A stretch of 64,000 nt of DNA from Pseudanabaena sp. lw0831 (GCF_016584665.1 NZ_BBJB01000090.1:1-64000), one strand, 5' to 3'; numbered from the stretch's first letter, positions 4,069 through 20,023 are shown. Notes: a model not told the origin generated them from the sequence alone. Numbers and translations: made by a program.

Positions 4069-4404
4069 ATGGCAAATGATGACGATCTGACTCAGACTAT
4101 TCCTGTACAACTGGAAGATGGAACGACAATTCTGGTTGAGGTAACGCATACTGGACGGCAAGATGTGGCAAATGAAGCCAGTAAGTTTAAAGCGGTAACT
4201 GATGCGCTCGGCGGAATTGTCCAAGCGATCGCTGAGCCGATTAACCGCGCAAAACCGTCTAAGGCGACGGTGAAGTTTGGCATGGAGTTAGCGGTTGAGG
4301 TTGGTCAATTAACAGCCGTACTGGTCAAAGGCAGTGGTAAGGCAAATCTAGAAATTTCGCTGGAATGGACAAAGGAAGCAGGGACGGTGAAAACCATTGG
4401 CTAG
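4069..4404 (+). CDS. Trypco1 (CU044_2847) family protein, copy 1
   Basis: 111-aa protein of the CU044_2847 family, also called trypsin-co-occurring domain 1 (Trypco1): IPVQLEDGTTILVEV, then a helix with FKAVTDALGGIVQAI, then a beta hairpin ending NLEISLEW. As its name says, the family is found next to trypsin-like proteases, often fused to STAND NTPases, in predicted bacterial conflict or regulated-death systems. Here the protease-NTPase gene follows and overlaps by 8 nt, so the two products are probably made in a set ratio and interact. A paralogue, more than 80% identical by eye, lies at 14071-14445. Its role as sensor, scaffold or inhibitor is not established. Confidence 0.8.
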   Translation: MANDDDLTQTIPVQLEDGTTILVEVTHTGRQDVANEASKFKAVTDALGGIVQAIAEPINRAKPSKATVKFGMELAVEVGQLTAVLVKGSGKANLEISLEWTKEAGTVKTIG

Positions 4405-6976
4405 TCTCAATCCAGATAATCTCAAGACTTGTACTGTAAAGCTAAGTATTGATAATACTCACGGTACAGGTTTCTTTGTGGCGGCGGGGCTAATTTTGAC
4501 CTGTCATCATGTGGTTAAAAATGCTGGCGATCGCCCGATTAAGGTGAGATGGCAAAACCAAGAGGATTTTGCAGTGGCGAAGGTTTTGCAGTCCTTTCCC
4601 GATCCTGTCGATCTGGCTTTGTTGCAATTTGAGACGGTGGAAGCTTTAGCTTGTGTGGAGTTGGATGGGGCGATCGCAGCTTTTGACGATCTTTTTGCCT
4701 ATGGCTATCCTGATGTTGATCCAAATGGTGCGGGTGTGGTGTTGCGGTGCGATGGGCTGAATGGTGATCAGCCGCCGAAGATCAAGTTTAGTGATGGCAG
4801 AGTGCGCTCGGGGTTAAGTGGTGCGCCGTTGCTCAATCCTGCTACGGGTATGGTTTGCGGTGTTGTTAAGTATACAGAAGATCGCAGTTTGCCTTTGGGT
4901 GGTGGTGGGATTCCGATCGCGACAGTTTTTGAATATTTTCCCTATCTTGCTAATCTCAATCGTCAGTTTCACCAGCCGCAATGGGGAGATGTTAATCCTT
5001 ATAAGGGGCTTGCCTATTTTGAAGATGACGATGCGCGGTTCTTTTTTGGGCGGACAGCACTAACGGATTCATTACTGGATCACCTTGAGCAAAATAATTT
5101 TCTAGCCTTGTTGGGAGCTTCGGGTAGTGGCAAATCTTCGGTATTACGAGCAGGATTGCTGAACCAATTACGACAGGGGCAAATATCGGGCAGCGATCGC
5201 TGGGAATTGCAGGTGATGTTACCGACCGAGCGTCCACTCAACAGTTTGGCTAATACATTTGTCAGTCCAGAGTTAGAGCGTGAAGATCGTGCCATTAGCT
5301 TAAACAAGATAGAAGAACTAATTGCAAAACAAGGTGATAAAAAAGATGGGTTGCGGCAATTGGTACAAACATCAGCAGCGCCCCGTGTGATCTTGGTTAT
5401 CGATCAATTTGAGGAGTGCTTTACTCTGTGTCAAGATTTACAGGAGAGAGAACATTTCTTTGGTCTGCTATGGAAAGCTCTAGAACTTCCAAAGGATAAA
5501 TTTTGTCTAGCGATCGCTATGCGTGCAGATTTCTTTGGGAAATGTGTGGAACGGGAATATGGAGGACTATCGAAACGGATTGCGGAGCATTTAGTACCAG
5601 TGACTCCGATGAATGATGATGAGTTGCGAGAGGCGATCGATGAACCTGCGAAGACTGTCGGTTGCGAAGTGGAGCCAATTTTGAGAGAGGAGATCGTGCG
5701 TGATGTGGCGGGTGCGCCTGCGAATTTGCCTTTGATGCAGTTTGCGCTTTCGGAGCTGTGGCAGTCACGAGATGTCAATCGCTTGACTTTGCAAGCCTAT
5801 AAGCAGAAGTTAGGAGGGATTGCAGGGGCATTAGAGAAGAGGGCAAATGCGGTTTATGCTCAGTTTACGGATGAGTTAGACCAGAGGGCAGTGAAACATA
5901 TCTTTTTGTCGCTGACGCAGTTGGGTGAGGGTACGGAAGATACGCGCCGCCGTGCGGTTTTAAGAAATTTACCAACGGAAATGCTTCCTTTAGAGGTAAT
6001 TGAGAAGGCTGTCAAAAAACTTGCCGATGAGAAACTGGTGGTAACGACTACGCTGACTGAGAAAGATGGAAAACCACAAAAAGATGCGATCGTGGATGTA
6101 GCGCATGAGACGCTAATCCGTCGATGGACGCAGTTGCGAATGTGGCTAGATGAAAATCGGCAATCTTTGCGACAACAGAGGAAGCTTGAGGAGCGGGCTG
6201 AAGAATGGCAGCAACTAGGTAAACCCAAAGACTATTTGATTCAGGGCTTGCCTTTGCGAAATGCTATTCAATTTAGTCGAGAAACCACGTTGTCAAGCTT
6301 GTTACAAGAATTTATTAATCAAGGTCAACGGAAACAGATAATATCTCGTATCCTAACGATTGGTCTGTTAGGAGTTCCATCTATTATGCTTTTTATACTT
6401 TTACCCTTCTGGGTTGTCATTCAATCATCTTCTTTCATTACATCAAAAAGCTGTATTTCTAATCCTAATGCAAGAATTTACCTTCAGATTTTGATGTTAA
6501 CTGGTTTTAAAAAACAACTAAAAGGGGCAAACATTTGTAATCAAACATTATTTGGTATCAATCTAAGTGGCGCTAGATTAGAAGGAGCAAATCTTGATGA
6601 ATCAAACTTTTCTGGTGCTAATTTTAGAGGAGTTAGCTTGGAGGATGCTAGGCTTAGAAGAGCATATATTACAAAAGCTAATTTGGAAGGATCTTTTCTA
6701 GTAAGAGTAAATTTTGAAGGTACAGATCTCGAAGGTTCTTCTTTAGCAGGATCACACTTAGGGAAATCAAGTTTTAAAAATACCAATCTTAACAATGTCA
6801 ATCTTAAAGGTGCAATTCTTATGCAGACTGATCTCAAAAATGCTCTTAACCTAACTACAGAGCAAGTTAATCAAGCTGTACTTTGTCAAACTCAAATTCC
6901 AAGTTACATTAAGATAACTGACACAGACAGGGATTGTAATACTAAGGATTTTAAGAATTTTCGCTTGTTAGAGTGA
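4397..6976 (+). CDS. Trypsin-like protease + STAND NTPase + TM + pentapeptide repeats
   Basis: 859-aa multidomain protein. Residues ~10-185 are a trypsin/HtrA-like protease with triad H38 (TCHHVV), D72 (DPVDLALL) and S141 (GLSGAP). Residues ~200-620 form a STAND NTPase of the nSTAND1 kind, beginning NPYKGLAYF, with Walker A GASGSGKSS (240-248) and Walker B around VIDQFEE (D336). A hydrophobic helix at ~650-681 is followed by pentapeptide repeats of the A(N/D)LxG type at ~718-818. The start is TTG at 4397, 8 nt inside the Trypco1 gene; the second copy uses a non-ATG start with the same overlap. Probable role: NTP-gated membrane-bound protease of a conflict system, by family inference. The pentapeptide C-terminus, in place of the more usual WD40 or TPR array, is the variable sensor part. 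Confidence 0.85.
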   Translation: MASLNPDNLKTCTVKLSIDNTHGTGFFVAAGLILTCHHVVKNAGDRPIKVRWQNQEDFAVAKVLQSFPDPVDLALLQFETVEALACVELDGAIAAFDDLFAYGYPDVDPNGAGVVLRCDGLNGDQPPKIKFSDGRVRSGLSGAPLLNPATGMVCGVVKYTEDRSLPLGGGGIPIATVFEYFPYLANLNRQFHQPQWGDVNPYKGLAYFEDDDARFFFGRTALTDSLLDHLEQNNFLALLGASGSGKSSVLRAGLLNQLRQGQISGSDRWELQVMLPTERPLNSLANTFVSPELEREDRAISLNKIEELIAKQGDKKDGLRQLVQTSAAPRVILVIDQFEECFTLCQDLQEREHFFGLLWKALELPKDKFCLAIAMRADFFGKCVEREYGGLSKRIAEHLVPVTPMNDDELREAIDEPAKTVGCEVEPILREEIVRDVAGAPANLPLMQFALSELWQSRDVNRLTLQAYKQKLGGIAGALEKRANAVYAQFTDELDQRAVKHIFLSLTQLGEGTEDTRRRAVLRNLPTEMLPLEVIEKAVKKLADEKLVVTTTLTEKDGKPQKDAIVDVAHETLIRRWTQLRMWLDENRQSLRQQRKLEERAEEWQQLGKPKDYLIQGLPLRNAIQFSRETTLSSLLQEFINQGQRKQIISRILTIGLLGVPSIMLFILLPFWVVIQSSSFITSKSCISNPNARIYLQILMLTGFKKQLKGANICNQTLFGINLSGARLEGANLDESNFSGANFRGVSLEDARLRRAYITKANLEGSFLVRVNFEGTDLEGSSLAGSHLGKSSFKNTNLNNVNLKGAILMQTDLKNALNLTTEQVNQAVLCQTQIPSYIKITDTDRDCNTKDFKNFRLLE

Positions 6977-10567: not shown

Positions 10568-13099
10568 CTATAAACCATTGCCGATCGCTAAAAATGCTGA
10601 CCAATAATTGGGGTGGTCATACTCTTTAGAGCGGATTTGTGAAATTTGGGCTTTGCGTAATGCTTCTGTAATGGTTACATCTCCTTTTAGAAGCTCTCTA
10701 TAAAAGGCAGTCATTAGAGCTTGTGTCCCCTGATCCTTCACGCTCCAGAGAGAGGCGATCGCATTTTTTGCACCTGCTTTTTGAACTTGGTAGCCAAAGC
10801 CCAAAATCTCCACTCCATCTCCAAGTTTGCCAACTCCAGTTTGACAAGCACTCAACACAATTAAATCTAGATTTGGAATTTGCCAATTGGTGATTTCATT
10901 GAGGCTGATTTTGTCGCCATTACCAAAAATGATGTAGGAATTTTCTGGTGTACCAGTATTAAACTCAGCATGGGTCGCAAGGTGGAGAATATTGTGATTT
11001 TTGAATTTTGATTCGATGGCTTGGCGGCTAAAGTTTTCTTCAGTTAAAGTAATAGAATTTTTAAAGGGATCAATGATTGATTGGACTTCTTTAATCGTTG
11101 CTGGCAGAGCAATTTGCCCAAATTTTCGCTCACCTGTTTTACCGCCAAATGCTCCTGCAAGGATGCTAGGCTGAGATTTGGATCGCGGCGAAAAATCGGA
11201 CAGAATATAGGCAATGAGATTACTGATGCGATATTTTTCAATTAGCCACTGTTTGCCATCATACAGCGCCGCCAAAGGAACATAGCGTAGTCGTCCATCG
11301 GGGGCATAGAGGATTGTTTCGGCTTTTGCTTGGGTGAGTTCTGTCTCAATAGGTTTAATCAGCAAATTGTAGAGTTCTTTAGCAGGTTCCGTGACATCTT
11401 CAGAGCCAGCATCAAGGAGTCCACTTCTGAAATCAACAATTAGTCTTTCTAGCTTTTCTTGAGAGATTTTCACAGTGCGACTAATCGGTATAGTATTCGC
11501 AGAAAAGAGCACTAACTCTAAGCGATCGCTAAGAATTAGAGGATAGAGTAAGACAGTACCTTGAGGGATTTGTTTAAGATAATCGGGAACTTTATTAATC
11601 TCTGATTTAGGAAGTTGTTGAATCTGATTGGCAAGTTGGCGATTGAGTTCGGGGATTTGCTCTTTGCTAATGCCTGAGAGCTGAGCGCTAATCGTCTTTT
11701 CTGGCTCCAGCATCCTTATCCCTTGCGCGGTTTGATCGTTCCCTTTAATGTTTTTGAGATAGTCTTCCAGCTCTTGGACTTTGAGCAAGTCTAGAACTTG
11801 GATCGCCTCGATCACACGTCCTTGATTGAGCAGGAGAGCCGCGAGACTGCGATAGCGATCGCCTACTGTCTGCAAATAGGATTGACGTTCTTCTTTAGCT
11901 AAACCGCGAATATCTTTGCGAATTGCTTCCGTAATACTAATGGAAGACTTATAGAAAGCGATCGCTAAGCTAGACTGATTTAGATTAGTTAGGGCAGCAG
12001 CAATCTCTGCGTTTGCCTGTGCTTCACCTTTGCGTTCGCCAATTTGGCGGACAACTACGAGATGTTGCTGATATAAATCTAATGCTTTTTCGTATTGTTT
12101 AAGCGAATAGTAAGCATTACCAAGATTCCCTAATGTTGCGCCTTCCCCTTGACGGTCTTTAATGGTTTGCACAATCTCTAAGGTCTGCTGCAAATAATCA
12201 ATGGCTTTTTGATGTTGCCCGATCGCATTGAAAGCATTGCCAAGATTCCCTAATGCCGTGGCTTCTCCATTGCGATCGCCGATTTGCTTATAGATTACTA
12301 GAGCCTGTTGATAAACCTCAATCGCTTGCTGGTATTTGCTTAAGTATGTATAAGTATTACCTAAATTCTCTAGGGCTTTACCTTCACCGCGCCGATCGGC
12401 GATCGCTCTTACAAGAGTTAAGCTCTGCTGGAGCCAGTCTACAGCTTTTTGATATTGACCTAAATAGGCATAGGTATTACCAATGTTTCCAAGTGCATAA
12501 GCTTCTCCTTGACTATCTCTTATATTTTTTGTAGCTGCTAAGTATTGCTGATAGAAGTCTAGAGCCTTTTGATACTGCCCCAGAGCTACGTAGTCATTCC
12601 CTAAAAGACCAAGAATGAGGCTTTCACCTTGGCGATCGCTGATTTCGCGAGCAATTGCTAGTCCCCGTTGATGGCTATCAATTGCTTTTTGATATTGTCC
12701 TAAAGCAAAATAAGCTGCTCCTAGATTGTTGAGTAATTTAACTTCTAAAAGCGGAATGCCCAATTGCTTTGCAATTTCAAGGCTTTTACCAAAAGTATTA
12801 ATGGCATTATCAAATTGACCAAAAATCAAGTAGATATTCCCTATCAATAGTTGAGCATTGGCTTGACTGGGATAGTCGTTGATTTCTTGATAAATCTGTA
12901 ATGCTTGTTCTGCGGATTGCAAGGCTTCACGAAATTGGCTCACCTGAGCTTGTTGAAGTCCTTGATTGAATAACCGATCTGCTTCAATTTTGCGCGATTG
13001 AATAGGCTGAGCTTGCACAGTCATGGGCGACAGATCGGATGACCAACCCAAAGTCCCAGTTAAGGCAAAAATTGCGATCGCGTATAACCTAGAAGCCAT
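10568..13099 (-). CDS. TPR-repeat CHAT-domain (caspase-like) protein
   Basis: 843-aa protein. A signal-like N-terminus (residues ~1-31, ending VQAQP) is followed by about nine 40-residue tetratricopeptide repeats with recurring LGNLGNAY/YQKALDFYQQ patterns (~40-400). A helical linker then leads to a C-terminal CHAT domain with catalytic H710 (LHLATHAE) and C752 (LSACQTG). CHAT proteases belong to the caspase/gingipain clan and in several known systems are switched by TPR regions. The gene lies between the subtilase and the second Trypco1 operon, so three protease folds occur within 15 kb. Location (periplasm or membrane-anchored) is inferred from the N-terminus; the substrate is unknown. Confidence 0.9.
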   Translation of the reverse strand: MASRLYAIAIFALTGTLGWSSDLSPMTVQAQPIQSRKIEADRLFNQGLQQAQVSQFREALQSAEQALQIYQEINDYPSQANAQLLIGNIYLIFGQFDNAINTFGKSLEIAKQLGIPLLEVKLLNNLGAAYFALGQYQKAIDSHQRGLAIAREISDRQGESLILGLLGNDYVALGQYQKALDFYQQYLAATKNIRDSQGEAYALGNIGNTYAYLGQYQKAVDWLQQSLTLVRAIADRRGEGKALENLGNTYTYLSKYQQAIEVYQQALVIYKQIGDRNGEATALGNLGNAFNAIGQHQKAIDYLQQTLEIVQTIKDRQGEGATLGNLGNAYYSLKQYEKALDLYQQHLVVVRQIGERKGEAQANAEIAAALTNLNQSSLAIAFYKSSISITEAIRKDIRGLAKEERQSYLQTVGDRYRSLAALLLNQGRVIEAIQVLDLLKVQELEDYLKNIKGNDQTAQGIRMLEPEKTISAQLSGISKEQIPELNRQLANQIQQLPKSEINKVPDYLKQIPQGTVLLYPLILSDRLELVLFSANTIPISRTVKISQEKLERLIVDFRSGLLDAGSEDVTEPAKELYNLLIKPIETELTQAKAETILYAPDGRLRYVPLAALYDGKQWLIEKYRISNLIAYILSDFSPRSKSQPSILAGAFGGKTGERKFGQIALPATIKEVQSIIDPFKNSITLTEENFSRQAIESKFKNHNILHLATHAEFNTGTPENSYIIFGNGDKISLNEITNWQIPNLDLIVLSACQTGVGKLGDGVEILGFGYQVQKAGAKNAIASLWSVKDQGTQALMTAFYRELLKGDVTITEALRKAQISQIRSKEYDHPNYWSAFLAIGNGL

Positions 13100-14070: not shown

Positions 14071-14445
14071 ATGTCAAATGATAGCGATCGCATTCAGACT
14101 ATCCCCGTACAACTGGAAGATGGAACAACAATTCTGGTTGAAGTAACGCAAACTGGGCGTGAAGATGTGGCAAACGAAGCCAGTAAGTTTAAAGCGGTAA
14201 CTGATGCGCTCGGCGGAATTGTGCAGGCAATCGCTGAGCCGATTAACCGTGCAAGACCGACAAAGGCGACTGTCAAGTTTGGCATGGAGCTAGCCTTGGA
14301 ATCGGGCAAGTTAACAGCAATACTGGTGAAAGGTACGGGAAAAGCTAATCTGGAAATCACGCTGGAATGGAGTAAAGATACGTCGAGTCCCAAGTCGTCC
14401 AGTGAAACGCCTACAACTACTGGGGAAATAAAGCCAAGTGTTTAG
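14071..14445 (+). CDS. Trypco1 (CU044_2847) family protein, copy 2
   Basis: 124-aa paralogue of the protein at 4069-4404. The core is almost the same (QLEDGTTILVEVTQTGR, FKAVTDALGGIVQAI, ANLEITLEW), followed by a longer Ser/Thr/Pro-rich tail (SSPKSSSETPTTTGEIKP). The shared leader and high DNA similarity show a duplication within this locus. It overlaps the following protease gene by 8 nt, the same overlap as in copy 1. The specific partner is probably the protease-ATPase directly downstream; whether the two copies cross-talk is unknown. Confidence 0.8.
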   Translation: MSNDSDRIQTIPVQLEDGTTILVEVTQTGREDVANEASKFKAVTDALGGIVQAIAEPINRARPTKATVKFGMELALESGKLTAILVKGTGKANLEITLEWSKDTSSPKSSSETPTTTGEIKPSV

Positions 14446-15994
14446 CCAGAGAGCCGATGAAAGATTGCAAGCCTGTACTGTAAAGCTAAGCGTAAATGGC
14501 AGTCATGGTTCGGGCTTTTTTGTCGCGCCAAGATTGATTCTTACCTGTCATCATGTGGTGAAAAATGCAGGCAATCAACCGATCGCAGTACGGTGGCAAG
14601 ATCGAGATGACTTTACAACAGCAGATATTTTGTACGCTCATCCCGATCCTATCGATCTTGCTTTGCTGCAATTCCAGACTGAAGAATTGCATCCTTGTGT
14701 TGAGTTCGATGAGAATATTGAACCGTTTGACGATCTCCATATTTACGGCTATCCCAATGACTATCCTAATGGTGCACCTGTTGGACTGAGGTGTGATGGG
14801 TTTACGGGAGATTCACCACGTAAAGTTATTTTTAGCGGAGACAGAGTAGTTCGCCCCGGACTCAGTGGCTCACCGTTAATGAATTGGCGAACAGGGAAAG
14901 TTTGCGGTGTTGTTAAATATACAGAAGATCGTAGTTTGCCTTTGGGTGGTGGTGGAATTCCCATCAAGACAGTTTTGGAATATTTTCCCGATCTTGCGAC
15001 TCTAAATCGTGAGTTTCACCAGCAGCAACGGGGTGATGTCAATCCGTTTCAGTATGGTGCGCCTGTGTCGCCCGATCGCTTTTATGGTCGGGTGAGTGCG
15101 ATCGCGGATGTCAAAAATCGGATTGGGGCAATTTCGGCGCAATGTGTGAATATTGTCGGGTTGCGACGTAGTGGGAAGAGTTCGTTTTTGCGTTATATCA
15201 AGGAGCGTCCGCAGGTTTTCTTTCAGGATTCGCAACAGCCGTTAATTGTGTTGTTGGATTTGCAAGATGCTAGGTTTCATGAGCCATCAGGGATGATGGA
15301 GGGTTTGCGGCAAAACCTACGAAGACAGATGGGAATGGAGCCTTGGACAAAGGCTGATAATGACGATCCCTATGCGATCGAGGATGCTTTGTTGGCATTA
15401 AAAGAGCGCGGGTATCGGTTGATTGTGATGTTGGATGAGTTGGAGCGGATTGGGGTGCGGTTGGATAGGTTTCAAGATTGGGGTGAGGATTGGCGCTCAA
15501 AGGCTTCGGCAGGTTTGTTTGCTCTGGTGGTAGCGAGTCGGCATCCACTTAGTGAGATTTATGGCAATTTGGGGTTAACTTCGCCATTTGGGAATATTTT
15601 TAGTACGACGGTGTTGGGGGCGTTGGAGGTTGAGGTATGGGAGAAGTTATTGCGGGATGGGTTTTCTAGTTATGGGGCAGATATGCTGAGGTTGATTGAT
15701 GATTTGGCGGGGCGGTTGCCTTTTTATACGCAGATGGCGGCGGCGTTAATTTGGCAGCATGGTGATGTGGAATTGGTAAAAAGAGAGTTTTTGTTTCAGG
15801 TGGCTCCGCGTTGGGGGGAGCTTTGGGATGAACTGTCTGATTTGGAACGTCATGCTTTGAGAGTGGTGGTGGGGAAATCAGGAAGTGCGGCGGCTCCTGT
15901 GACGCGGGATTGGTTGCAACGGTATGGGTTATTGGGAACTAATGGGGAGTTGTTTAGTGATGTGTTTGCGGAGTTTGTGCGAGGTTTGCGATGA
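14438..15994 (+). CDS. Trypsin-like protease fused to STAND/Orc1-like ATPase
   Basis: 518-aa protein from a GTG at 14438 inside the Trypco1 gene. The N-terminal protease carries H39 (LTCHHVV), D73 (DPIDLALL) and S143 (GLSGSP), and is clearly homologous to the protease of the 4397 gene up to the GGGGIPI strand. After that the NTPase is of a different type: NPFQYG linker (~203), Walker A GLRRSGKSS (241-249), Walker B IVMLDELERI (D333-E334), then a helical and winged-helix-like end. So the duplicated protease has been joined to another ATPase class. There is no membrane segment. The next gene starts in the ATGA overlap of its stop codon and carries an ATPase with the same NPFQYG linker, which suggests the two assemble together. 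Confidence 0.85.
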   Translation: MFSQRADERLQACTVKLSVNGSHGSGFFVAPRLILTCHHVVKNAGNQPIAVRWQDRDDFTTADILYAHPDPIDLALLQFQTEELHPCVEFDENIEPFDDLHIYGYPNDYPNGAPVGLRCDGFTGDSPRKVIFSGDRVVRPGLSGSPLMNWRTGKVCGVVKYTEDRSLPLGGGGIPIKTVLEYFPDLATLNREFHQQQRGDVNPFQYGAPVSPDRFYGRVSAIADVKNRIGAISAQCVNIVGLRRSGKSSFLRYIKERPQVFFQDSQQPLIVLLDLQDARFHEPSGMMEGLRQNLRRQMGMEPWTKADNDDPYAIEDALLALKERGYRLIVMLDELERIGVRLDRFQDWGEDWRSKASAGLFALVVASRHPLSEIYGNLGLTSPFGNIFSTTVLGALEVEVWEKLLRDGFSSYGADMLRLIDDLAGRLPFYTQMAAALIWQHGDVELVKREFLFQVAPRWGELWDELSDLERHALRVVVGKSGSAAAPVTRDWLQRYGLLGTNGELFSDVFAEFVRGLR

Positions 15995-18918
15995 GTGATG
16001 CTCTGAAGTTGTGGCTGAGGGAGAGTTGGGAGTTATGGTATTGGGCGATGTTTTGTCCTTCTCGGTTGCAGGAGAGGATGAATGAGTGGAGTCCTGCTAA
16101 GGAGCGTGATGGTGTTCGACCAGATACAACTTTCCGAAATATTCTCTGGAATAGAATCAATTGGCGCTTTTCATTGCAATTTATCCAAGTTTCTTGCTGG
16201 TTCAGTTTGCCTCTTGTTGCCTTAATTCTCATCTATAGCCGATTTTGGGATTTGTTACTATTACCTATCATTTTTTTAACAGCTTATTGTAGTGGAGGGC
16301 TTTTGAATTTTCTCATTGGTTTAAATGTTCCATTAATTTTTATTCTAATTTATTTTTCAAAGCCTACTTTTTTTGTTACTGGACTGACTAAAGCTATGAC
16401 AACTTTGCCACCATTACCACAGATTGGCATAGGGCTATTAGTTGTCACTCTAGGACTAGTTATCACCAATTTTTTAGTGCCTTTGAGTTTAACCCGTAAT
16501 CTAATTTTAGCCAGAAGTTTATTGGTATTTGGATCTACCCTAAGTGTTTTCAGTGGTAGTTGGATCAGTAGTCAAAACTTGCTGTTTACTTCAGCAACTG
16601 CTGGTTTCGTAGGTTTATTTCTGTTTTTTATACGAGATAATATTGATATTAATATTAATTCAAAAAATGATGCTTTCGTCGTTCCTTTCGTCGGTGCGGT
16701 AGGCGTTGCTTTCGGCGTTGCTTTCGCAGTTGCTTACGGCGTTGCTTTCGGCGTTGCTGTCGACATTGCTGTCCTCGTTGGGGGTAAAGTTGACGACGTT
16801 GCTTTCGTCGCTGCTTTCGGCGTTGCTGTCCTCGTTGTGAGCGGCGTTGCTTTCGTCGTTGCTTTCGTCGTTGTGGGCGGCGTTGCTTTCGTCGTTGCGG
16901 TCATTGTGTTCAATGTCGGTGCGGGCGTTGTGAGCGTTATTTTTGGCGTTGGTCTCGTCGTTGTTTTCGTCGTTGCGGGCAGCGTTGCGGGCAGTGTTGC
17001 GGGCGGCGTTGCCAGTATAAGTACTATAGTTTTACCTATATTTTTATGCCTCTGCTGGCTAGTTGGGGCGAGTCTTTCTCCCAATAGACAAAGATGGTTA
17101 GGATTAATTGCTGCTGCTATGATGTGTGCTTTGAGAATAGAATATCAAGGTGGGGAAGCATTGTTATCCATCCCAATTACATTAATCGGTTACTATAGGT
17201 TCTTTCCCGACTTTAGCCTCTTTACAGCCTTGACCCTACCAACAATTTCTATCTTTCGCCGCATCAAACCTAATCCATTTCAACTTTTACGCCTATTACC
17301 CCCATTCACCAGCGAATTACTCTGGCTCCCCTTACCCAATCACGATCGCCTCATCATCACCGCCTTTCGTCAAAATCCCCTAGAAGCAATCCCAATTTTT
17401 CAATCCATCCAAAAACAACCCCTCTATGGATTTCAACAAACAATTAAAAATGCCTTACCACAACTAATCGCCGATCAATTAATCACCGTTCAAACCATTT
17501 CCGAACTCATCACCACAGCCACACCAAACCACGCCATCTTACCCCTACTCGTTCCATCCCTATACCAAACCGAATTAGTAGATCCCCAATCCCTCAATGT
17601 TGAACTTCTCCCCACCTTCCAAAAATATGCTCAAAATACCGATGCAGCCCTCCAAGCAGGAAGTATTGCCCTCCGCGAACGCGGCTTAGAACGCATCCTT
17701 GACCAACTATCCACATTAAATTCCCAACTCTCAGGACTAGTCAAAAGCAAATCCATCCCACGCTGGCAAAACGTAATCAAACAATGGCAAACCATCATCC
17801 AGCAAGAACTAGAACAACTCCAACGCCAATCCCAAGGCGAAATCCTTAACCCCTTTCAGTATGGCAATCCCCTCACCCGCGACAGAGCGCAACTATTTAA
17901 AGGACGTTCCGCCTTTGCCGATCAAATCGTCCGCCAAATCCTCGATCGCAACCGTCCCACCATTATCCTGCATGGTCCCCGACGCTGTGGCAAAAGCTCC
18001 TTCCTGCTCAACCTACCGCGCCTCCTAACCAGTGACGTTTTGCCCGTATACATCGACCTCCAAAGCCAATCCGCCAGCCAAAGCGAAGCCGACTTCTGCT
18101 TCACCATCGTTCGCGCCATCCACCGCGATGCCCGTAGCCAACAGGTACTCCTACCCGCCCCACCCAAACGCGAAGAATTTCGCCTCAGCCCCTACACCCA
18201 ACTCGAAGACTGGCTCGACACCGCCCTAACCCAATTAGGCGACAGACGTATCCTCCTGAATATCGATGAATTTGAAGCGATCGGCACAGCAATGGAACAG
18301 GGACGCATTAGCACCAATCTCTTTGATGAACTCCGCAGCCTCATCCAACATTGGGATCGCCTCAGTTTCCTCTTCTCTGGAGTCCAAACCCTAGACGAAC
18401 TCGGAACCAATTGGAGCAGCTACTTCATTAGCGCCATGCCCATCGAGATGACCTACCTCAACCCCAACGAAGCCAGAGAACTGCTCCTAAATCCCGATCC
18501 CGAATTCACCCTCGCATACGACACAGGCATCGTTGACCAAATCCTCACCCTCACTCGTTGCCATCCCTACCTCCTCCAACTCCTCGGCTGGGTACTCGTG
18601 CAACTAGCCAACACCACCCACACCCAACTCGTCACCCCCACCCTCCTCCAATCCGCCATTCCCGAAGCCTACATCAACGGCATCGGCTACTTCACCAACG
18701 TCTGGGAACAGTTCACAGGCACAACCCCCACCGAAATCACCGCAGGTCAACAACAACTCCTAGCCCTAGCCCAAGGACAACAACCCCACCCCACCAACGA
18801 GTCAGCCCAAAAATCCCTACAAAGAATGCTTCGCTATCACATCATCGAAAAAATCAATAACCAGTACAAATTTGAAGTCCCCTTAATCGAACGCTGGGTC
18901 AGAGAGAAGTCAATCTGA
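15991..18918 (+). CDS. Polytopic membrane protein with V/A/F/G repeats and C-terminal STAND-like ATPase
   Basis: 975-aa protein, start ATG at 15991 overlapping the previous stop (ATGA). Residues ~55-230 contain about five or six hydrophobic helices. Residues ~231-341 are a remarkable run of four-residue units of the VAFG/VAFV type, encoded by a degenerate 12-bp tandem repeat. More helices follow to ~420. The helical region to ~610 is soluble. The C-terminal ATPase starts at NPFQYG (N620) with Walker A GPRRCGKSS (~662) and Walker B LLNIDEFEAI (D759). The ATPase resembles the one in the gene before it. It probably anchors or gates the trypsin-ATPase at the membrane; this is inferred from operon structure only. 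Confidence 0.8.
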   Translation: MSDALKLWLRESWELWYWAMFCPSRLQERMNEWSPAKERDGVRPDTTFRNILWNRINWRFSLQFIQVSCWFSLPLVALILIYSRFWDLLLLPIIFLTAYCSGGLLNFLIGLNVPLIFILIYFSKPTFFVTGLTKAMTTLPPLPQIGIGLLVVTLGLVITNFLVPLSLTRNLILARSLLVFGSTLSVFSGSWISSQNLLFTSATAGFVGLFLFFIRDNIDININSKNDAFVVPFVGAVGVAFGVAFAVAYGVAFGVAVDIAVLVGGKVDDVAFVAAFGVAVLVVSGVAFVVAFVVVGGVAFVVAVIVFNVGAGVVSVIFGVGLVVVFVVAGSVAGSVAGGVASISTIVLPIFLCLCWLVGASLSPNRQRWLGLIAAAMMCALRIEYQGGEALLSIPITLIGYYRFFPDFSLFTALTLPTISIFRRIKPNPFQLLRLLPPFTSELLWLPLPNHDRLIITAFRQNPLEAIPIFQSIQKQPLYGFQQTIKNALPQLIADQLITVQTISELITTATPNHAILPLLVPSLYQTELVDPQSLNVELLPTFQKYAQNTDAALQAGSIALRERGLERILDQLSTLNSQLSGLVKSKSIPRWQNVIKQWQTIIQQELEQLQRQSQGEILNPFQYGNPLTRDRAQLFKGRSAFADQIVRQILDRNRPTIILHGPRRCGKSSFLLNLPRLLTSDVLPVYIDLQSQSASQSEADFCFTIVRAIHRDARSQQVLLPAPPKREEFRLSPYTQLEDWLDTALTQLGDRRILLNIDEFEAIGTAMEQGRISTNLFDELRSLIQHWDRLSFLFSGVQTLDELGTNWSSYFISAMPIEMTYLNPNEARELLLNPDPEFTLAYDTGIVDQILTLTRCHPYLLQLLGWVLVQLANTTHTQLVTPTLLQSAIPEAYINGIGYFTNVWEQFTGTTPTEITAGQQQLLALAQGQQPHPTNESAQKSLQRMLRYHIIEKINNQYKFEVPLIERWVREKSI
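16677..17015 (+). repeat. Degenerate 12-bp in-frame tandem repeat
   Basis: About 27 degenerate units close to GTTGCTTTCGGC/GTTGCTTTCGTC inside the 975-aa membrane protein. The unit length is a multiple of three, so copy-number changes keep the frame and would only alter the length of the hydrophobic V-A-F-G/V segment. Interrupted by a few non-repeat codons (for example near 16790 and 16905). Confidence 0.85.
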
Positions 18919-18985
18919 ATATTTGCTAGCCTATGGCAAAATGTGAAAGTAGCGATCGCCGTTGCAATATTCCATTCTCAGATTT

Positions 18986-20023
18986 ATGCCTAATCAAATT
19001 GTCCCCGCAGACTACGAGCAACTATTGCGAGAACTAAAAAATCGCATCCGTTCAGCACAAATTAAAGCAGCCTTAGCCGTAAACCGAGAATTGGTATTAC
19101 TCTATTGGCAAATAGGGCGCGAAATTTTGCAGCGACAGGGGCAAGAAGGATGGGGAAGCAAGGTAATCGATCGCCTAGCCAAAGATCTCAAACAAGAATT
19201 TCCCGAGATGAAGGGCTTTTCTCGTACAAACTTGCTTTATATGAGAGCTTTTGCTGAAGCTTGGGTAGACGAGCAAATAGTCCAACAGGTTGTTGGACAA
19301 ATTCCTTGGGGACACAATCTACGGTTGTTGGACAAAGCAACTGGTTACAAAGAAAGGCTTTGGTATGCTCAACAGGCGATCGCCAATGGTTGGAGTCGTG
19401 CCGTATTAGAACACCAGATTGAAACAAAACTCTATCAAAGACAAGGTAAAGCAATTACCAATTTTGATTTAACCTTGCCCCAGCCACAATCCGATTTAGC
19501 ACAACAACTGATTAAAGATCCCTACACATTTGATTTCTTAACTTTGGCGCAAAATGCTCAGGAGCGAGATCTAGAGAAAGCTTTACTTGAGCGCATTCGT
19601 AGTTTTCTATTGGAACTTGGGACAGGATTTGCTTTTGTTGGTAGTCAGTACCATTTGGAAGTAGGCGGCGATGATTTTTATATTGACCTGTTGTTTTACC
19701 ATCTGAAACTGCGCTGCTACATTGTCATTGACCTAAAGACGACAAATTTCAAACCTGAATATTCAGGCAAAATGAGCTTCTATGTATCTGTAGTCGATGA
19801 TTTGCTGCGGCATCCTGACGATAAACCGACAATTGGCATCATCTTGTGCAAGTCACGAAATCAAACAGTCGCGGAATACGCGCTACGAGATGTAAACAAA
19901 CCCATTGCAGTTTCTCAATACAAGCACGAGTTACCAGCATCTTTGCAGAATGTCTTACCAAGCATCGAACAATTAGAAGCAGAGTTAGCAACGATTGAAA
20001 TGATAGAAAGCGATCGCCTATGA
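18986..20023 (+). CDS. DUF1016/YhcG-type PDDEXK nuclease
   Basis: 345-aa protein from ATG 18986 (a TTG 24 nt upstream is less likely). The N-terminal DUF1016 helical domain is recognisable (LLRELKNRIRSAQIKAAL, VNRELVLLYWQIGREIL, GWGSKVIDRLAKDL, FSRTNLLYMRAF). The C-terminal PDDEXK nuclease domain has FYIDLLFYH, then LRCYIVIDLKT, giving D...D-x-K. Such proteins accompany restriction-modification and other defence loci and are thought to be DNA nucleases. It closes the 4-20 kb accessory island. The stop codon lies directly after a HIP1 site. Function in vivo is not established. Confidence 0.85.
   Translation: MPNQIVPADYEQLLRELKNRIRSAQIKAALAVNRELVLLYWQIGREILQRQGQEGWGSKVIDRLAKDLKQEFPEMKGFSRTNLLYMRAFAEAWVDEQIVQQVVGQIPWGHNLRLLDKATGYKERLWYAQQAIANGWSRAVLEHQIETKLYQRQGKAITNFDLTLPQPQSDLAQQLIKDPYTFDFLTLAQNAQERDLEKALLERIRSFLLELGTGFAFVGSQYHLEVGGDDFYIDLLFYHLKLRCYIVIDLKTTNFKPEYSGKMSFYVSVVDDLLRHPDDKPTIGIILCKSRNQTVAEYALRDVNKPIAVSQYKHELPASLQNVLPSIEQLEAELATIEMIESDRL

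Follow-up and report, generated by a model that had tools for sequence, protein, structure and literature searches.

The operon at 14071-18918 of the window, the 64,000-nucleotide stretch of Pseudanabaena sp. lw0831 DNA that was analysed, encodes two related STAND-like ATPases, A and B, whose genes are co-encoded, have co-diversified and are naturally fused in some genomes. The ATPase motifs of both proteins and the protease triad of A are intact, and the N-terminal output of A is exchanged among homologues. The operon is read with moderate confidence as one case of a two-ATPase relay in which B would be the membrane sensor and A the relay that fires whichever output is attached to it.

The operon and the conserved ATPase pair

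The features of the operon, and of a separate system in the window that carries the same Trypco1-trypsin cassette, are as follows.

4069-6976, plus strand: separate system with the same cassette, identified by Pfam (Trypco1, 4069-4404; trypsin-nSTAND1-pentapeptide protein, 4397-6976)
14071-14445, plus strand: Trypco1 gene, 124 aa (PF19493, 3e-19), which goes with the trypsin domain
14438-15994, plus strand: gene A, the second gene, soluble trypsin-ATPase, 518 aa, GTG start
14438-15042, plus strand: N-terminal HtrA/trypsin-like protease module of A, exchangeable output (Trypsin_2; DegS fold; triad H39, D73 and S143; swapped in the sister species)
15043-15994, plus strand: STAND-like ATPase of A with C-terminal helical/winged part, the constant, putative relay module (homology to the B ATPase; 2QEN fold; mirroring of the B tree)
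15991-18918, plus strand: gene B, the third gene, membrane ATPase, 975 aa
15991-17280 (end approximate), plus strand: polytopic, hypervariable membrane region of B (hydropathy; AlphaFold helices; dS and dN jump relative to locus L183)
16671-17012, plus strand: 12/36-bp tandem repeats within B, coding for a hydrophobic Gly/Ala-rich stretch (TRF), variable among relatives
17281-17847, plus strand: helical middle region of B, kept in B homologues of subfamilies I-III (AlphaFold)
17848-18918, plus strand: STAND-like ATPase of B with C-terminal winged helix (AAA_22; SSO1545/PABY2304 fold; invariant Walker motifs)

A preliminary description of this DNA had all three genes overlapping, and the open reading frames, their coordinates and the overlaps of 8 nt (Trypco1 and A) and 4 nt (A and B, ATGA) were verified exactly. 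The NPFQYG opening that it ascribed to both ATPase domains was likewise found in each, with the Walker A loops GLRRSGKSS in A and GPRRCGKSS in B, and the polytopic nature of the third gene product was backed by hydropathy and the AlphaFold model. Pfam searches returned Trypsin_2 (5e-16) and weak ATPase_2/AAA_22 matches for the second gene, and AAA_22 (1e-8) and nSTAND1 (1e-7) for the third. The model of the A monomer (pLDDT 86) begins with one short helix (residues 6-13) followed by the protease domain, which matched the DegS/HtrA fold, while the predicted ATPase matched 2QEN, the archaeal ATPase PABY2304. The model of the B monomer (pLDDT 80, with low confidence in the repeat stretch) yielded fold matches of the ATPase to 2QEN, 2FNA (SSO1545), Cdc6/Orc1 and MalT (8BOB); profile searches with the ATPases also matched 2FNA and 2QEN. 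The possibility that the two domains belong to unrelated families is answered by their 32% identity (E=3e-10) and common 2QEN match. The Walker A lysine and Walker B aspartate are invariant in A and B homologues, and the H39/D73/S143 triad is kept in 19 of the 20 trypsin-type A proteins, the remaining one being truncated.

Gene neighbourhoods were surveyed in a set of 291 genomes together with 80 named loci, leaving 97 informative B loci after 10 that ended at a contig or region edge were left out. An A-type ATPase gene lies upstream on the same strand in 92 of them, many from close strains and reducible to 43 representatives at below 80% identity, and two more (L054 and L069) encode a single-chain A-B fusion. 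B without A was found in three loci (L066, L100 and L144), so that third-gene homologues lacking the second gene are rare. B homologues, some of them more distant STAND proteins, occur in 40 of the 291 cyanobacterial genomes and also in Chloroflexota; the plasmid collection held no match to B. A search of the 291 genomes with the A ATPase recovered seven true A genes, each adjoining B or a decayed form of it, and a solitary match in genome G125 was rejected as a B-type remnant without the membrane part.

Placed together in one tree, the A and B sequences formed separate groups, with support of 94 for B and only 16 for A. The same four subfamilies (I-IV) were recovered in the A tree and in the B tree; these trees were built by quick methods, with the subfamilies well supported and the inner branching weaker. 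The mirror-tree correlation between A and B reached 0.90 for the whole set, a value attained in 0 of 2000 permutations; within subfamilies I to IV it was 0.85, 0.85, 0.92 and 0.64, the window's own subfamily giving 0.85 (0 of 5000). Since B nearly always adjoins A and both ATPase domains are of one family, the hetero-oligomeric ATPase envisaged in the preliminary description, which would link membrane part and output, is plausible from the sequences.

Further observations concern related and flanking loci. The genome of the window holds another A-B pair (L053, 7723-11282 of contig C69), which belongs to subfamily IV and has a short A with an unassigned N-terminus. Five Nostoc loci (L114, L119, L122, L129 and L147) hold two small genes between A and B, one coding for 72-73 aa and the other for 135 aa, the 135-aa protein resembling a PIN toxin by eye. 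In two close Pseudanabaena relatives (L074/L184 and L075/L185) the system is decayed, with a longest remaining B frame of 208 residues, and one of these loci has an A gene cut shortly past the start of the ATPase. The C-terminal part of B is 95-98% identical to that of Pseudanabaena relatives, and its last 75 nt together with about 40 nt beyond (18844-18959) form a roughly 115-nt direct repeat found elsewhere in the genus. Two or three copies lie by PIN and HepT/nucleotidyltransferase toxin-antitoxin genes (L183, L187 and L188), even without A and B, and the repeat resembles a site of insertion or recombination. A DUF1016/YhcG PDDEXK nuclease gene (18962-20023; PADLOC candidate family PDC-S02) lies 43 nt downstream of B; it was rejected as a fourth gene of the operon, because matching sequence in sister species is split off from the operon by toxin-antitoxin genes or is present without A and B. 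A TPR-CHAT protein is encoded on the minus strand at 10568-13099, a caspase-like gene of conflict type near the operon.

Exchangeable outputs and the Trypco1-trypsin cassette

Rather than a fixed component, the protease is one of many exchangeable N-termini of A. Trypsin was found on A in 20 loci, in two distant subfamilies (the window clade and L062), and its distribution on the B tree requires at least two changes and most simply three. Other A proteins carry CHAT (L098, 7e-30; L104, weak; and in L097, 3e-27, on another A lying farther upstream), a protein kinase (L107, 4e-49), EAD1 (L109, 2e-10), EAD4 (L051, 8e-36), EAD7 (L106, 4e-8) or NNH2 (L102, below the cut-off), and a TIR domain starts the fused A-B protein of L054 (9e-40). 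DNA-binding types comprise BTAD/SARP in 11 Chloroflexota loci (2e-21 in L110), sigma/LuxR-like HTH in seven loci (significant in L055 only) and XRE-like HTH in 30 loci, the largest group, for which Pfam support is weak. Nine loci encode an A without any added N-terminal part. The EAD4-type genome encodes a second EAD4 protein elsewhere, EAD4-NACHT-HEAT, an arrangement that fits homotypic recruitment but does not prove it.

Outside the window, all 19 trypsin-type A-B loci have a Trypco1 gene and none of the 72 remaining A-B loci does. The preliminary description had treated Trypco1, protease-ATPase and membrane ATPase as a unit, a view that did not hold given that 72 of these 91 loci are without protease and Trypco1. 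The Trypco1 and trypsin trees also mirror each other over the various host systems (r=0.92; 0 of 2000 permutations). Trypco1 is therefore the companion of the protease and not of the ATPase pair. Within the genome of the window, Trypco1-trypsin cassettes are joined to the A-B pair (14071), to the nSTAND1-pentapeptide protein (4069-6976), to an NB-ARC-TPR protein (contig C85) and to two NACHT proteins (C113 and C108). Lying 10 kb upstream of the operon, the system at 4069-6976 is a complete conflict-type system in its own right, and its 73% nucleotide identity to the operon is limited to the cassette. Trypco1 genes without an obvious adjoining trypsin were also seen (G000, C44:111715-112026 and C54:19609-19896), one next to a uvrA-like gene and the other oriented divergently to a caspase-nSTAND1 gene.

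The A gene is chimeric in a sister species (genome G301, locus L183). In nucleotide sequence, the Trypco1 and protease of this locus mostly show 85-98% identity to those of the window's nSTAND1 system (4069-4998), and the protease is mostly 60-77% identical to that of the window's own A. Near 15040, where protease and ATPase join, identity to the window's A climbs to 94-99% and the nSTAND1 system drops to about 40% identity. In the protease tree the proteases of both systems from the genus form one clade (100/99), apart from most other A proteases (99/97). The chimera shows an output swap between co-resident systems at the domain junction, which may have proceeded in either direction. Output swapping is usually inferred only over deep time, and this chimera catches it within a genus.

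The membrane region of B and the proposed relay

Comparison of the window with L183 gave dN of 0.018 and dS of 0.14 for the B ATPase, dN of 0.31 and dS of 0.85 for the first 200 residues, and values of about 0.8 for each in the stretch after residue 200, where the alignment is uncertain. Because dS jumps six-fold, the sequences point to replacement of the membrane region by recombination besides fast change. In Nostoc relatives with B ATPases that are 94-96% identical, the repeat stretch spans 57-127 residues and is 43-75% identical, and several of these stretches contain long period-4 Gly/Ala runs. Intact B proteins retain the membrane domain save for the two fused A-B forms, and in L051 WD40 repeats are inserted within the membrane part.

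Input was assigned to B and output to A because the N-terminus of A varies among enzymes, adaptors and DNA-binding domains while intact B keeps its membrane domain. In the proposed relay the membrane domain of B would detect an event at the membrane or envelope, most likely phage entry or envelope damage, upon which B and A would assemble through their ATPase domains into a mixed ring or pair that depends on ATP. As A clusters, its attached N-terminal output would be switched on. Where that output is the protease, it may cleave Trypco1, or a target held by Trypco1, and so set off defence or regulated death. The nuclease-trypsin pairs of Hachiman and Avs (PMC12799240) offer an analogy, by which Trypco1 would most simply be a substrate, gate or substrate-holder of the protease. 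The outputs of A are among those listed in surveys of NTP-dependent conflict systems (PMC7159879, PMC8195603).

Two features tell against this relay: the HTH-like N-termini on many A proteins suit a stress-response regulator equally well, and the Gly/Ala repeats of B would suit a pore too. B could itself be the effector, its repeat-rich membrane region acting as a pore or depolariser that the module on A triggers by cleaving or recruiting B, much as caspases do gasdermin. Period-4 Gly/Ala runs do exceed those of shuffled sequences in the membrane repeats of several B proteins, and protease-activated membrane effectors are known, as in CARD-NLR/gasdermin (PMC13236601). A pore on B is disfavoured because the membrane part is kept where A bears BTAD or a sigma-like HTH, DNA-binding versions with which a pore output makes little sense; the WD40 repeats in one membrane part are a feature of sensors, and the membrane region varies faster than would be expected for a pore. 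An effector role for B is accordingly doubtful.

It also seems improbable that the pair is a housekeeping or envelope-stress regulator of the MalT/IniR type, sensing a metabolite or the state of the envelope and controlling gene expression or regulated proteolysis. Such a role would agree with the HTH-like or BTAD N-termini of the largest A groups, with the MalT match of the B fold and with the SSO1545-like ATPase of IniR, a mycobacterial envelope-stress regulator (PMC5760070), but it is at odds with the patchy distribution and decay in close relatives, with the exchange of outputs between co-resident systems and with the conflict-system output domains in the window's subfamily. The overlapping genes and the strict co-occurrence of Trypco1 and trypsin could further be taken to indicate a dedicated three-component system whose design depends on the protease; against the many A-B loci that have neither, and a cassette that this genome also carries on unrelated NTPases, this is very improbable.

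If the two-ATPase relay is correct, the pair may, more tentatively, represent widespread and undescribed membrane-anchored two-subunit STAND immune receptors of cyanobacteria and Chloroflexota, having a fast-evolving sensor B, an obligate paralogous relay A, plug-in outputs exchanged by recombination and Trypco1 as an obligate substrate or gate. One ATPase pair with many outputs, together with one cassette on several ATPase systems in a single genome, constitutes a natural experiment in modular immunity. Two questions are thereby opened to testing, namely the role of Trypco1 for its protease and that of a membrane-bound STAND partner in sensing infection.

Comparison with known systems

No named system for A plus B was found in PADLOC or NCBIfam. 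The predicted folds resemble those of SSO1545/PABY2304/MalT-like (MNS-type) STAND ATPases, B through 2QEN, 2FNA and 8BOB and A through 2QEN. PMC8195603, following Leipe et al. 2004, names an Npun2340/2341 family of MNS clade STAND ATPases. These adjacent Nostoc gene numbers may be an A-B pair, which is the main risk to the claim of novelty; neither a membrane partner nor an interchangeable N-terminus is described for them in PMC8195603 or PMC7159879. With a constant A-B core and shared variable effectors and adaptors (trypsin, CHAT, kinase, TIR, EAD1/4/7), the pair would belong by domain content to the NTP-dependent conflict systems of the Kaur/Aravind class. The search of the accessible literature returned only general surveys and no account of a membrane STAND paired with a STAND of interchangeable output.

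The preliminary description knew of no system with this three-part split, a claim to novelty that has to be narrowed in two respects. A two-STAND operon with a variable effector is already present in the nSTAND2 two-gene system (Kaur et al. 2021, PMC8195603), which likewise has adjacent STAND genes, a predicted hetero-multimer and the effector on one partner. In nSTAND2 the partner that bears the effector, GT4 or HEPN, has eroded motifs, whereas here the Walker motifs are intact in both ATPases, the second ATPase is polytopic and the effectors differ. Membership was rejected since the motifs of A are not eroded and nSTAND2 (PF20702) gave no match in either ATPase protein of the window at E up to 1. 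A trypsin-like protease fused to an ATPase with a second ATPase co-encoded is likewise found in CARD-NLR/LypABC (PMC13236601), where protease and second ATPase are both required for lysis. LypA has an N-terminal CARD and is without Walker residues, LypB has TPR repeats and no Trypco1 is described, in contrast to an A without CARD and with intact Walker motifs and a B that is a membrane protein. Pfam gave no TPR match in B, in which membrane and helical regions precede the ATPase, and membership was rejected for want of an N-terminal CARD on A and TPR-like repeats on B. Avs1 (AVAST type 1) was also rejected, only residues 7-106 of the protease matching Avs1b with 19.8 bits against a cut-off of 1500.

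The cassette itself resembles the nuclease-trypsin cassettes of Hachiman, Avs, Lamassu and DRT (PMC12799240), in which trypsin is N-terminal on unrelated defence proteins, a dedicated upstream gene is constant, and the pair co-evolves and has been acquired repeatedly. The partner there is a proenzyme of a metallo-beta-lactamase-fold nuclease activated by cleavage, whereas here it is Trypco1. In the VMAP ternary systems (Kaur et al. 2020, PMC7159879), where Trypco1 was named as a neighbour of trypsin, its gene likewise adjoins a trypsin fused to a core component; that core is MoxR-vWA-VMAP, in place of which the present operon has a STAND pair and no MoxR or vWA gene. Overall, the A-B pair departs from nSTAND2 and CARD-NLR in the features tested, and the elements that it shares with known systems are neighbouring Trypco1 and trypsin, two-STAND operons and a trypsin-ATPase encoded with a second ATPase.
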